64,000 nucleotides of DNA from Cyanodermella asteris. Lineage: Eukaryota; Ascomycota; Lecanoromycetes; Ostropales; Stictidaceae. Under the pieces are notes generated by a model. The model was given only the letters and a program-made list of their open reading frames with translations, searched no databases and was not told the DNA's origin. This document shows positions 29,906 through 51,422 of the stretch, piece by piece (position 1 is the first letter of the stretch; the number at the start of each line of letters is the position of its first letter). Location of the stretch: positions 248,001 to 312,000 of the forward strand of contig UYJD01000011.1 of the NCBI GenBank assembly GCA_900618795.1. Direction: 5' to 3'. A program made the position numbers and the translations under genes.

Positions 29906-30738
29906 TGGGTGTAGTTGATAGATGTAGGAACAGAATTTTTTCATCACATTCCGATTGTAGAATTGGCACGCATGCGAGCCATGGGGTACAATCTTGTACA
30001 GATCGATCTATATTCGCATCGTGTGCTTTTGCTGCGTATCGTCTCCTATCCGGCGTCTGCTGTGGTCGCAATGAGGTGGAACCTTCTGTAATTCCAGCTG
30101 GAAAAGCTTCCGCCTCCACTAACATCAACCCAAGTAATCGTCCAGGTGCTCATCCGAGTATTCCTGTAGTTTGGCACCGCTGTGCTGGCGCGTGAGCTCA
30201 CTTCAAGTAGACTCCTCGGTGTTGGTCAGGGTCCCCTACGACGAACCTGTTGAGACCCGTATCCGAGGAGGGTTGCTGTCAGTGATTTGAACATTGTTGA
30301 TCCATCTTGTTCGCTTTTCATGAGGAATCACTAAACCAGGAAAACGTTGACTCTCAGCGAGCGTTCTTTGGTCACGTGCCGATGGTTCTTCAGCGGCGCG
30401 TTCCGCCCTTTCGACGCGTCCTCGGCACTCCATCTCAATGCCTGCGCCGAAACCCTGCATGGTAGAAATTGGTCGCAATCATCTCCCCATGTTGATCTCA
30501 ACTCCGATCAGCTGGCTGCATATGCAAGTCCTGAAAGATCCTTTGCCACACTTGGTAGATGGACTGTGCCTTGGATGGCAGTCCTGTCTGTGGGAACGTT
30601 TTCGCTTGAAATAGAGCCCGTCTTGCCGACGTGAGCCCCGTTTGACCATGACGAAAGTATACATATAGAGTTCCCAAAACCTTCTTTTGCTTGTTTCTTG
30701 TACCCATAAAATCTACTCACAGCGTTACTCTGACAAAG
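29906..30738. other. Spacer between tandem genes
   Basis: 833 bp holding the dehydratase 3' flank and the amidohydrolase promoter. No gene is seen. Confidence 0.6.
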
Positions 30739-32079
30739 ATGCATACTTTGAGTACTATTCTCTACGCGGCTGGCCTCGCTGCTGCACAGAACGCCGTCCA
30801 CAAAGGAAATTTTGCTATCACAAATGTGTCTATATTTGATGGCTTGGAATCCTACCCTGGCTCAAGCTACACGGTGCATATCAAAGATGGCATCATTGAT
30901 ACGATGGTCTCAGACGCATTACCCGCAGGACAACCCAACGAATACCCCATCGTCGATGGTCGACAGCACTTTCTCGTCCCAGGGTTTCTCGACACCCATG
31001 TCCATGTCGTCGACGCAGCCACTGACTTGATCAGTGTCAGATCTCAAGGCGTCACCACCATGTTCGACATGGCTTGCTTCGATGGGAAAGTAGCTTGCGA
31101 CGCTCGAAACCTGGCCAGACATCCTCCGGACTCGATCCATTCAGTCGGATCGGCCGAGCACTCGACGTTCCTCGCCAACATTACCTCCTTAGGACCTTAT
31201 CCAGAACTGTTCCATGCATACAAACCAGCAATTGCGCCCGTAGGCAGTCATGCCCTCCTGGTATCGCCAGAGAACCATATCCATACTGCAGAACAAGCAA
31301 GGTCACATATTACAAATCAGGTAGCCGAGGGGGCAAACCATCTCAAGATTGTCAGCACGACGCCCGGGTTCGATCTTGACATGCTCAAGGTGCTCGTCAC
31401 CGCCGCAAAAGAGGCCGATAAGATCACAATCTGCCACGCGACTGACGTGGAAGCCTTTGTCAACGCAGCGAAAGCAGGCTGCGATCAATTGCGCCACACG
31501 CCACTGGACAAGGTGCTCTCAAATCAGGATCTGGAAATCGTCAAGGCTAGCCAAGCCGTTGTGTCGGCAACCCTGGTGCAAATGGAAGCTGTTGCACGCG
31601 AGCTGAACGCCATGTGGGTTATACTGGCTATGGACGTTTGAAACACCGTTCAGGGCTACGTCTCGGGTAAAGGATGGGAATGGAAGAGAAGGTCGTTTTC
31701 GACTGCGAAAGAGAACTTGAGACTGCTGGCTGATGCTGGTGTGCCTCTGATCGTCGGCACCGATGCTACCGGCACCGATGGGCCGGTCTTTCTCACCGTG
31801 AACATGAGGACCGGCTTTCAGAGAGAAATAGACCTGTTGCGCGAGGTCGGGTTGGACGCAAGAACAATCATACGCGGCATGACGGGCCTGGCCGCGGAGA
31901 AGTTTAGACTCGATGACAGAGGCCGCATTCAGACGGGAAGGAGAGCAGACTTGGTCTTGCTCGGAGGCAACCCAGCTGAGAACATTGATGCTCTCAAGCA
32001 GGTGCAAAGGGTGTGGGTTGGTGGAATTGAGGCAGACAGACGCGAATCCCCTGCGCCAGAGACGAAAGATGAGCTGTAA
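30739..32079 (+). CDS. Secreted amidohydrolase, interrupted by TGA or containing a cryptic intron
   Basis: ATG 30739 starts a signal peptide (MHTLSTILYAAGLAAAQ), followed by a metal-dependent amidohydrolase. Ligands are GFLDTHVHV, the Lys in NHLKIVS, His in ITICHATDVEAF, His in QLRHTPLD and Asp in LIVGTDATG. The C-terminal GRRADLVLLGGNP segment is typical of the imidazolonepropionase/prolidase-like branch. A TGA lies in frame at 31639-31641, and the same frame then continues intact for about 145 codons. Frame-neutral introns ending at CAG 31653 could remove it, starting at 31618 (36 nt), 31591 (63 nt) or 31576 (78 nt). None has a good donor. Spacing to the GTD motif in relatives, as I remember it, fits the 63- or 78-nt options best. 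Otherwise the gene carries a nonsense mutation. The substrate is unknown. Confidence 0.75.
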
Positions 32080-49607: not shown

Positions 49608-51422
49608 ATGAACGCCCAGGCCAGCCAGCGGAAGAGCGGCGCAAAGTCGTCTTTCGAGAAATACGCACATCTACCGTTGTACGTGGACCGGCCCCGGGAA
49701 TGCGCCCTGGCCGGCAAGGCGCTCCTCGAGACACCCGAGTTCCCGGCGCACGAGCGCCGCGAGTTCGGGCTCCAGGGCCTGCTTCCCACGAACCTGCAGA
49801 CGCTCGAGGAGCAATGCCGTCGAGCGTACCAGCAGTACAAGACGCGGCCGGACGATTTGGCCAAGAACACCTTCCTGACCAGTCTGAAGGAGCAGAACGA
49901 AGTCTTGTACTACAGACTGATCATGGACCATATGAAGGAGATGATGAGTGTCGTGTACACGCCGACGGAAGGCGATGCCATTCAGAATTATAGCAGGGTG
50001 TTCAGGAGGAGCGATGGGTGTTTTTTGAACATTGAGGACTCGAGCAAGGAGAGCATCGAAGAGGCGTTTAGACAGCAAGAGAAGGGCTCGGATGATGTCG
50101 ACTACATTGTCTTGACTGATGGGGAGGAGATTTTGGGGATCGGAGACCAGGGCGTGGGCGGCATATTGATCAGCGTGGCCAAGTTGGTTCTGACGACGAT
50201 CTGCGCTGGGATCCATCCGTCGCGTACGATACCTGTCGTGCTCGACTGCGGGACGGACAACGAAGAGCTTCTCAATGATGATCTTTATCTCGGTCTACGG
50301 CAACCCAGGGCGAGAGGTGACAAGTACGATCAATTCGTCGAGAACTTCGTCCAGACGGCCCGGAAAATGTACCCGCGAGCCTACATACACTTTGAGGACT
50401 TTGGCCTGCAGAACGCACGAAGACTCCTGGATCGATACAGACCCAAGATCGCCTGCTTCAACGACGACGTCCAGGGGACTGGCTGCGTCACGCTCGCTGC
50501 AGTTCAAGCTGCCCTTCAGGTCGCCGACATCAAGATCACGGACGCTCGAATCGTCATTTTCGGCGCCGGCACCGCCGGCACTGGTATTGCCGACATGCTG
50601 CGTGATGCCATCGCACTAGAACAAGGCAAGAGCGGCGACGACGACTACAAAGACTCGGCTCGAAAGCAAATCTAGTGCGTCGACAAACCGGGTCTACTAC
50701 TCCAATCCATGGGCGACAAGCTCACCCACGGCCAACACCAGTACGCCCGAGACGACGACGAACTCAAAGGCAAAGACCTCACCAATCTCCTCCAAGTCGT
50801 CCAGGAAGTGAAACCGCACATCCTGATCGGCACCTCAACCCAGCCCAAGACCTTCACCAAAGAGATCGTCCGAGAAATGGGCAAACACTCCGAGCGTCCC
50901 ATAATCTTCCCCCTGAGCAACCCCACGAGACTACACGAGGCCGACCCGCACGACATCCTGCAGTGGACCGACGGCAAAGCGCTCGTCAGCACCGGCTCGC
51001 CCTTCCCACCCTACGAATCCGACGACCGCACCATCGAGATCAGCGGGTGCAACAACAGCACCTGCTTCCCCGGCATCGGGCTGGGCGCGGTCCTCTCGCG
51101 GGCGCGCCTCGTCAGCGACAAGATGCTGGTGGAGGCGACCAAGGCGCTCGCCGGCCAGAGTCCGGCGTTGCGGGGTCACGGCGAGCCGGATGCGGACAAG
51201 GGGCTGCTGCCGGACGTGGTGGATGCGAGGGAGATTAGCGTGCACATTGCCAAGGCGGTGATACGGCAGGCTGTCGAGGAGGGGTTGGCGCAGGAGGAGG
51301 GGATTCCGGAGGAGGACGGGGAGCTGGATGGATGGGTTAGGGCGCAGATGTGGGATCCTGTTTATAGAAATTTGGTGAAACCGGGGACGAAGGGGGAGCA
51401 GACGGGTCCGGCTGAAGGATAG
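49608..51422 (+). CDS. Malic enzyme with one in-frame TAG at a conserved Trp position
   Basis: ATG 49608 opens a 605-codon frame with a single internal stop, TAG at 50673-50675. The N-terminal malic domain shows YTPTEGDAIQNYSRVF, DGEEILGIGDQGVGG, ECALAG and FEDFGLQNARRLL. Metal-binding residues lie in CFNDDVQGTG. The dinucleotide fold GAGTAGTGIADM follows. Downstream of the stop the same frame continues with CVDKPGLLLQSMGDKL, IGTSTQPKTFTKEIV, FPLSNPT and CFPGIGLGA, all conserved, to a normal end. Fungal enzymes that I recall read KQIWCVDKPGLL here, so TAG replaces the TGG of Trp. The enzyme makes pyruvate and CO2 from malate with reduction of NAD or NADP; the cofactor is not certain. No frame-neutral intron can remove the stop without losing conserved residues. 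Options are a recent null allele, sequencing error, readthrough or RNA editing. Confidence 0.85.

Follow-up and report, generated by a model that had tools for sequence, protein, structure and literature searches.

A malic enzyme gene within the analysed window (a stretch of DNA of 64 kb) was found to be interrupted by a single in-frame TAG at the place of an aromatic residue that is usually Trp, and we consider it rather probable, given the context of this codon and a comparable TAG elsewhere in the same genome, that it represents a site of premature-stop correction by A-to-I editing of the mRNA. The malic enzyme frame is located on the plus strand at positions 49608..51422 and comprises 605 codons including the end stop, extending from a start ATG at 49608 to a TAG at 51420-51422, while its only internal stop, codon 356, is situated at 50673..50675. 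Pfam matches were obtained on both sides of this codon: the malic enzyme N-terminal domain PF00390 (49890..50441; E 4e-64) and the first part of the NAD-binding domain PF03949, or Malic_M (50469..50642, Malic_M positions 1-57; E 3e-13), lie 5' of the TAG, and the remainder of PF03949 (50676..51275, Malic_M positions 64-258; E 3e-66) lies 3' of it. The presence of PF00390 and PF03949 in a single frame identifies the gene as encoding a malic enzyme, interrupted by one TAG, and a search of the genome flagged '1 TAG' within the Malic_M match at 50673-50675. An initial, sequence-only reading of this DNA had described a lone TAG in a 605-codon frame with no other lesion, a description that is borne out by the frame reading and by the Pfam matches flanking the stop.

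When the internal stop was entered as X, the best five solved-structure alignments listed were all gapless at this position, where X is faced by Trp in 6urf, 9xyw and 9e6m, by Phe in 6ags and by Tyr in 1llq. A search for a second malic enzyme gene, which the sequence-only reading had suggested, was performed across the genome (28.5 Mb, 25 contigs) and returned two malic enzymes in total, the other of which is located on contig C6, possesses an open frame and, as judged by eye, carries Trp at the equivalent place (FWLVDTKG). The residue had previously been termed a conserved Trp; in view of the Phe and Tyr of some relatives it is better described as aromatic and usually Trp. The accompanying interpretation of the lesion as a TGG-to-TAG change is judged to be right, while the argument for editing based on the U preceding the A carries no weight, as any TGG-to-TAG change has that U. 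Furthermore, the observation exceeds chance expectation: 369 stops flanked on each side by 60 or more open codons were counted in a sample of 264 kb, consisting of the 64-kb window and 20 stretches of 10 kb, and the TAG at 50673-50675 ranked first among them for two-sided coding score.

The malic enzyme TAG thus combines two features of premature-stop-correction sites, i.e., a UAG inside a frame that is open on both sides and a Trp at the corresponding place in relatives (three of the five solved relatives listed and the paralogue, with Phe or Tyr otherwise). Outside codon 356, TGG-to-TAG changes represent 2.4% of all single-base nonsense paths of the malic enzyme gene when transitions are weighted 2:1, or approximately 3% once that codon is added; since such paths are rare and UAG-to-UGG editing requires a TAG at a Trp place, the position of the stop counts for editing. 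Taken alone, the malic enzyme TAG leaves little to choose between a null allele and an editing site, yet the balance is shifted from the former to the latter by the occurrence, in the same genome, of a TAG at a PUK1/STK-21-like codon.

This second TAG (C21:379318-379320, minus strand) is located in the DWWS motif of an NDR-type kinase gene, probably STK-21/PUK1 (L064, C21:377500-382500), which is otherwise open and lies approximately 12 kb from the contig end. The corresponding kinase match (L056, C21:379093-379401) reads ...YDGRCD-TAG-WSIGIILYE..., with the codon pair TAG TGG, and the frame stays open for 609 codons ahead of the TAG and for 326 beyond it. The solved structures nearest to the part before the TAG are the NDR kinases STK38 and CBK1, while for the part after it MRCK-type kinases are the best matches, with CBK1 in fifth place and STK38 lower. 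The alignment with STK38 stops at residue 223 and resumes at residue 225, with room for a single residue at the TAG, although the aligned stretch that precedes it is weak (9.4 bits). The genome encodes three further NDR-type kinases in separate genes that are open at the DWWS/DYWS motif, and which we take from their motifs to be of the COT1, DBF2 and RIM15 types; the C21 gene is distinct from all three.

The NDR group of A. nidulans has been reported to consist of four members, the fourth of which, Stk21, is the orthologue of N. crassa stk-21 (PMC3591445). As the other three types are accounted for by separate genes, elimination leaves STK-21 for the C21 kinase, which is on this basis a candidate orthologue of N. 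crassa stk-21, and the UAGUGG in its DWWS motif fits this assignment: the UAGUGG of N. crassa stk-21 is reported to be edited to UGGUGG in perithecia, and PUK1 of Fusarium graminearum to carry a tandem UAGUAG at the same editing place (PMC4817773). The weight of a random nonsense change landing on the TAG codon of the C21 kinase is approximately 0.005, i.e., about 1/200, or about 1/70 when transitions alone are counted. The option of editing, one of several raised by the sequence-only reading, is accordingly backed by a second gene, with editing itself retained as a candidate explanation.

In the proposed mechanism, the UAG of the malic enzyme mRNA would be converted into UIG by Tad2-Tad3, an adenosine deaminase of the tRNA type, acting together with a stage-specific partner; the UIG would be read as UGG (Trp), thereby restoring the full-length enzyme. 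Full-length malic enzyme would then be made only in tissue with active editing, most likely fruiting bodies, while unedited mRNA would give rise to a 355-residue fragment devoid of most of the NAD-binding domain. Being a conserved metabolic enzyme, malic enzyme would be an unusual target of editing: most of the corrected genes of Fusarium are reported to be sexual-stage genes (PMC4817773). In a search of the literature for an edited premature stop in a fungal malic enzyme, the one paper found concerned plant mitochondria. In addition, a RID-type gene is among those whose premature stop is reported to be corrected in Fusarium (PMC11156358), whereas the RID-type gene of the present genome has an open frame, which counts against the editing reading.

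RNA folding places A50674 in the 7-base loop (50669-50675) of a predicted hairpin at 50651..50695 on the plus strand. The predicted 61-base fold around A50674 has a free energy of -17.1 kcal/mol and is equalled by three of 200 shuffles, while for the 101-base fold 58 of 200 shuffles are as good. Placement in the loop holds at flanks of 15-50, 100 and 150 bases (eight of ten lengths) and is lost at 75 and 200 bases. At flanks of 20, 30 and 50 bases, respectively, the A was predicted to be in a loop for 154, 107 and 81 of 327 TAGs in long frames, and the middle base for 88, 57 and 37 of 363 TGG codons; with 25-47% of TAGs thus in a loop by chance, the loop placement of A50674 adds little weight to the case for editing. 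The malic enzyme TAG has a G at +1, given by the TAG itself, and a G at +3, and published edited sites are reported to prefer G at both positions (PMC11156358), a preference that the G at +3 of A50674 fits. Counting against editing, the C21 site does not fit the hairpin-loop preference, its A being predicted to be paired (unpaired probability 0.02-0.05 with up to 150 flanking bases, and 0.21 with 200).

A fresh null allele would imply that a recent TGG-to-TAG change abolished the enzyme, that no further decay is seen as the event is young, and that the second malic enzyme remains; we regard this as unlikely, if far from negligible. As with any ordinary nonsense null allele, one TGG-to-TAG change accounts for the malic enzyme sequence, and an open second malic enzyme is indeed present in the genome. 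Lone nonsense lesions also seem to occur in this genome, as indicated by a survey of protein kinases (124 of 177 candidates scored), in which 16 rows among 139 matches contained stops, nine of them exactly one and seven two or more. The nine single-stop rows were read by eye, without transcripts: six correspond to introns or match edges (L055, L057, L059, L061, L062 and L063), and three are lesion-like, i.e., the TAG of L056 on C21 and a TAA in each of L058 and L060. The latter two (C3:91880-92620 and C6:1990160-1990630, respectively) encode divergent protein kinases, each frame being interrupted by one TAA with no visible intron. One of the seven rows with several stops, at C16:928204-928590, contains two TAA codons and lies in the COT1-type gene, past its open DWWS motif. 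In the MFS family, no stop was found in ten matches (9 of 304 candidates scored), while 20 matches to short-chain dehydrogenases (19 of 203 candidates scored) contained one TAA, which was read as an intron donor. Against a null allele stands the small share of nonsense paths in the malic enzyme gene that TGG-to-TAG changes represent, and the TAG at the PUK1/STK-21-like codon, which a null allele leaves unexplained, as it predicts no relation between the malic enzyme lesion and that in the C21 kinase.

That the base at 50674 reflects an error of sequencing or assembly is improbable, as the site is not part of a homopolymer, the malic enzyme gene contains no frameshift, most of the contigs seen measure 0.8-3.4 Mb, suggesting a good assembly, and a similar TAG is also present in an unrelated gene. 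Stop-codon readthrough, or a nonsense-suppressor tRNA reading UAG, would agree with the continuation of the open frame past the TAG, yet it is very improbable: UGA-CUA, a readthrough context known from fungi, is absent at the malic enzyme TAG, and no CUA anticodon was found among 45 tRNA genes in 46 nuclear stretches (63 of 686 candidates scored), an incomplete set in which Val, Pro, His and Asn tRNAs are lacking.

We attach still less probability to RIP, the C-to-T mutation of repeats, by which TGG to TAG would be a CpA-to-TpA change on the other strand. This dinucleotide context fits the TAGs of both the malic enzyme and the C21 kinase, the genome possesses two DNA-methylase genes, presumably RID and DIM-2 from their appearance, and the C21 frame 3' of its TAG displays a TpA/ApT index of 0.70 and a (CpA+TpG)/(ApC+GpT) index of 0.92, compared to 0.52-0.65 and a mean of 1.25, respectively, in 20 stretches of 10 kb. 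Conversely, the TpA/ApT index of the malic enzyme gene is 0.49, below that of all 20 comparison stretches, the genome yielded no close copy of either the malic enzyme or the kinase piece used as query (the next best match to the latter being 47%), and both genes carry single lesions, while RIP leaves many. The malic enzyme gene therefore displays neither the many C-to-T changes nor the close copy expected of inactivation by RIP, which is disfavoured and not indicated at this locus.

An intron spanning the malic enzyme TAG is very unlikely, as no GT was seen by eye in the 60 upstream bases and the protein is conserved on either side of it, so that splicing out the TAG would also cost conserved protein. 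A TAG in a sedolisin gene (L022), which at first looked alike, was rejected as a further candidate upon finding, by eye, that it ends an intron-like GTAAG...CTAAC...TAG stretch. Elsewhere in the window, an amidohydrolase-like frame (30652-32076, by eye) is split by a TGA at 31639, where there may be a short GT...AG intron some 40 bases long.

With A-to-I correction as the favoured reading of the malic enzyme TAG, the closest parallel is provided by PUK1/stk-21, where, as here, a UAG occurs at a Trp place in an otherwise open frame and UGG restores the protein (PMC4817773); UAGUGG also occurs in the present genome, in the DWWS motif of an NDR kinase. In contrast to the system described in that report, the gene in question here encodes a conserved enzyme of metabolism rather than a kinase, the present fungus may lie outside the sordariomycetes, and editing is proposed from DNA. 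The CHE1 transcript, which is edited in hyphae of Fusarium graminearum, similarly has a single UAG in a predicted hairpin loop and yields full-length protein only after editing, as is proposed here for malic enzyme, although CHE1 is a zinc-finger regulator whose TAG is conserved across related species (PMC11169179). The OLD-ZAO antiviral system is likewise reported to employ UAG correction by A-to-I editing, in that case of a zinc-finger gene that lies beside the editor (PMC12754623). A search for an OLD-type editor in the present genome returned one A_deamin gene, on the assumption that an OLD protein, described by its deaminase motif, would match this family.

Mitochondrial gene order and the uL3 protein weakly suggest that the host may belong outside the Sordariomycetes, the class in which such editing is established, a point that counts against editing. 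A 5.8S rRNA gene was not found among the 39 of 1016 candidates scored. In its large exon, uL3 shares 86% and 84% identity with two entries, themselves 92% identical to each other, which we take to be those of Chaetomium thermophilum and N. crassa, respectively. Both species belong to the Sordariales, and the lower identity of the present uL3 therefore leaves room for other Sordariomycetes. The mitochondrial contig is compact, comprising 27,463 bases. In its first 8,000 (L065, C1:1-8000), a single strand carries 22 tRNA genes that surround rnl, which is accompanied by an rps3-like frame (by eye); the order is cox3 (by eye) - N R K G D S W I S R P - rnl - E M M L A F L Q H M V. No nad6 frame is seen between cox3 and rnl in these 8,000 bases, whereas nad6 is reported to adjoin the tRNAs before rnl in Fusarium (PMC3847072), in Pochonia, with Verticillium as an exception (PMC4360972), and in Madurella (PMC3368884). 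The remainder of the order is much like that of Madurella. The missing trnK between trnF and trnL was dropped as grounds for excluding Sordariomycetes, Madurella also being without trnK there, and the W-I-S tRNA order was weakened as a class marker by the W that precedes nad6-V-I-S in Madurella.

It is conceivable, and is put forward tentatively, that a fungus outside the Sordariomycetes edits UAGs in its nuclear mRNAs, sharing the PUK1/STK-21 site with Neurospora and Fusarium and placing a central metabolic enzyme under the same control. If true, premature-stop correction would predate, or be more broadly distributed than, the Sordariomycete Ame1-Tad3 interaction, which is reported to have originated in that class, Pyronema being suggested to have an origin of its own (PMC11087585). 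Which ascomycete classes edit nuclear mRNA is described as an open question, the spread of such editing across fungi being given as undetermined and genome-wide editing as not identified in A. nidulans and B. cinerea (PMC11156358); a genome with two TAG sites, one of them at a seemingly classical editing codon, brings this question within reach. Moreover, if the malic enzyme is switched on only by editing, the supply of NAD(P)H and pyruvate would fall under a developmental editing programme.

As regards the putative editing machinery, three DUF726 (Ame1-like) proteins were found in the genome besides the A_deamin gene mentioned above. In the Tad2-Tad3-Ame1 editing of Sordariomycetes, Ame1 is reported to possess Met-Val at positions 500-501 (PMC11087585). 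This pair, which is required in Fusarium Ame1, is absent from all three DUF726 proteins, which carry SL, AK and AQ at the corresponding place, as counted gap-free from the GxSxG serine with D at +58 (three of three) and H at +98 (two of three) as anchors, and its absence counts against editing of the Fusarium kind. If the genome does edit, its cofactor may thus differ from Ame1 of the Fusarium type. Of the three DUF726 genes (L003, L004 and L005), the last two look like duplicates of one another.
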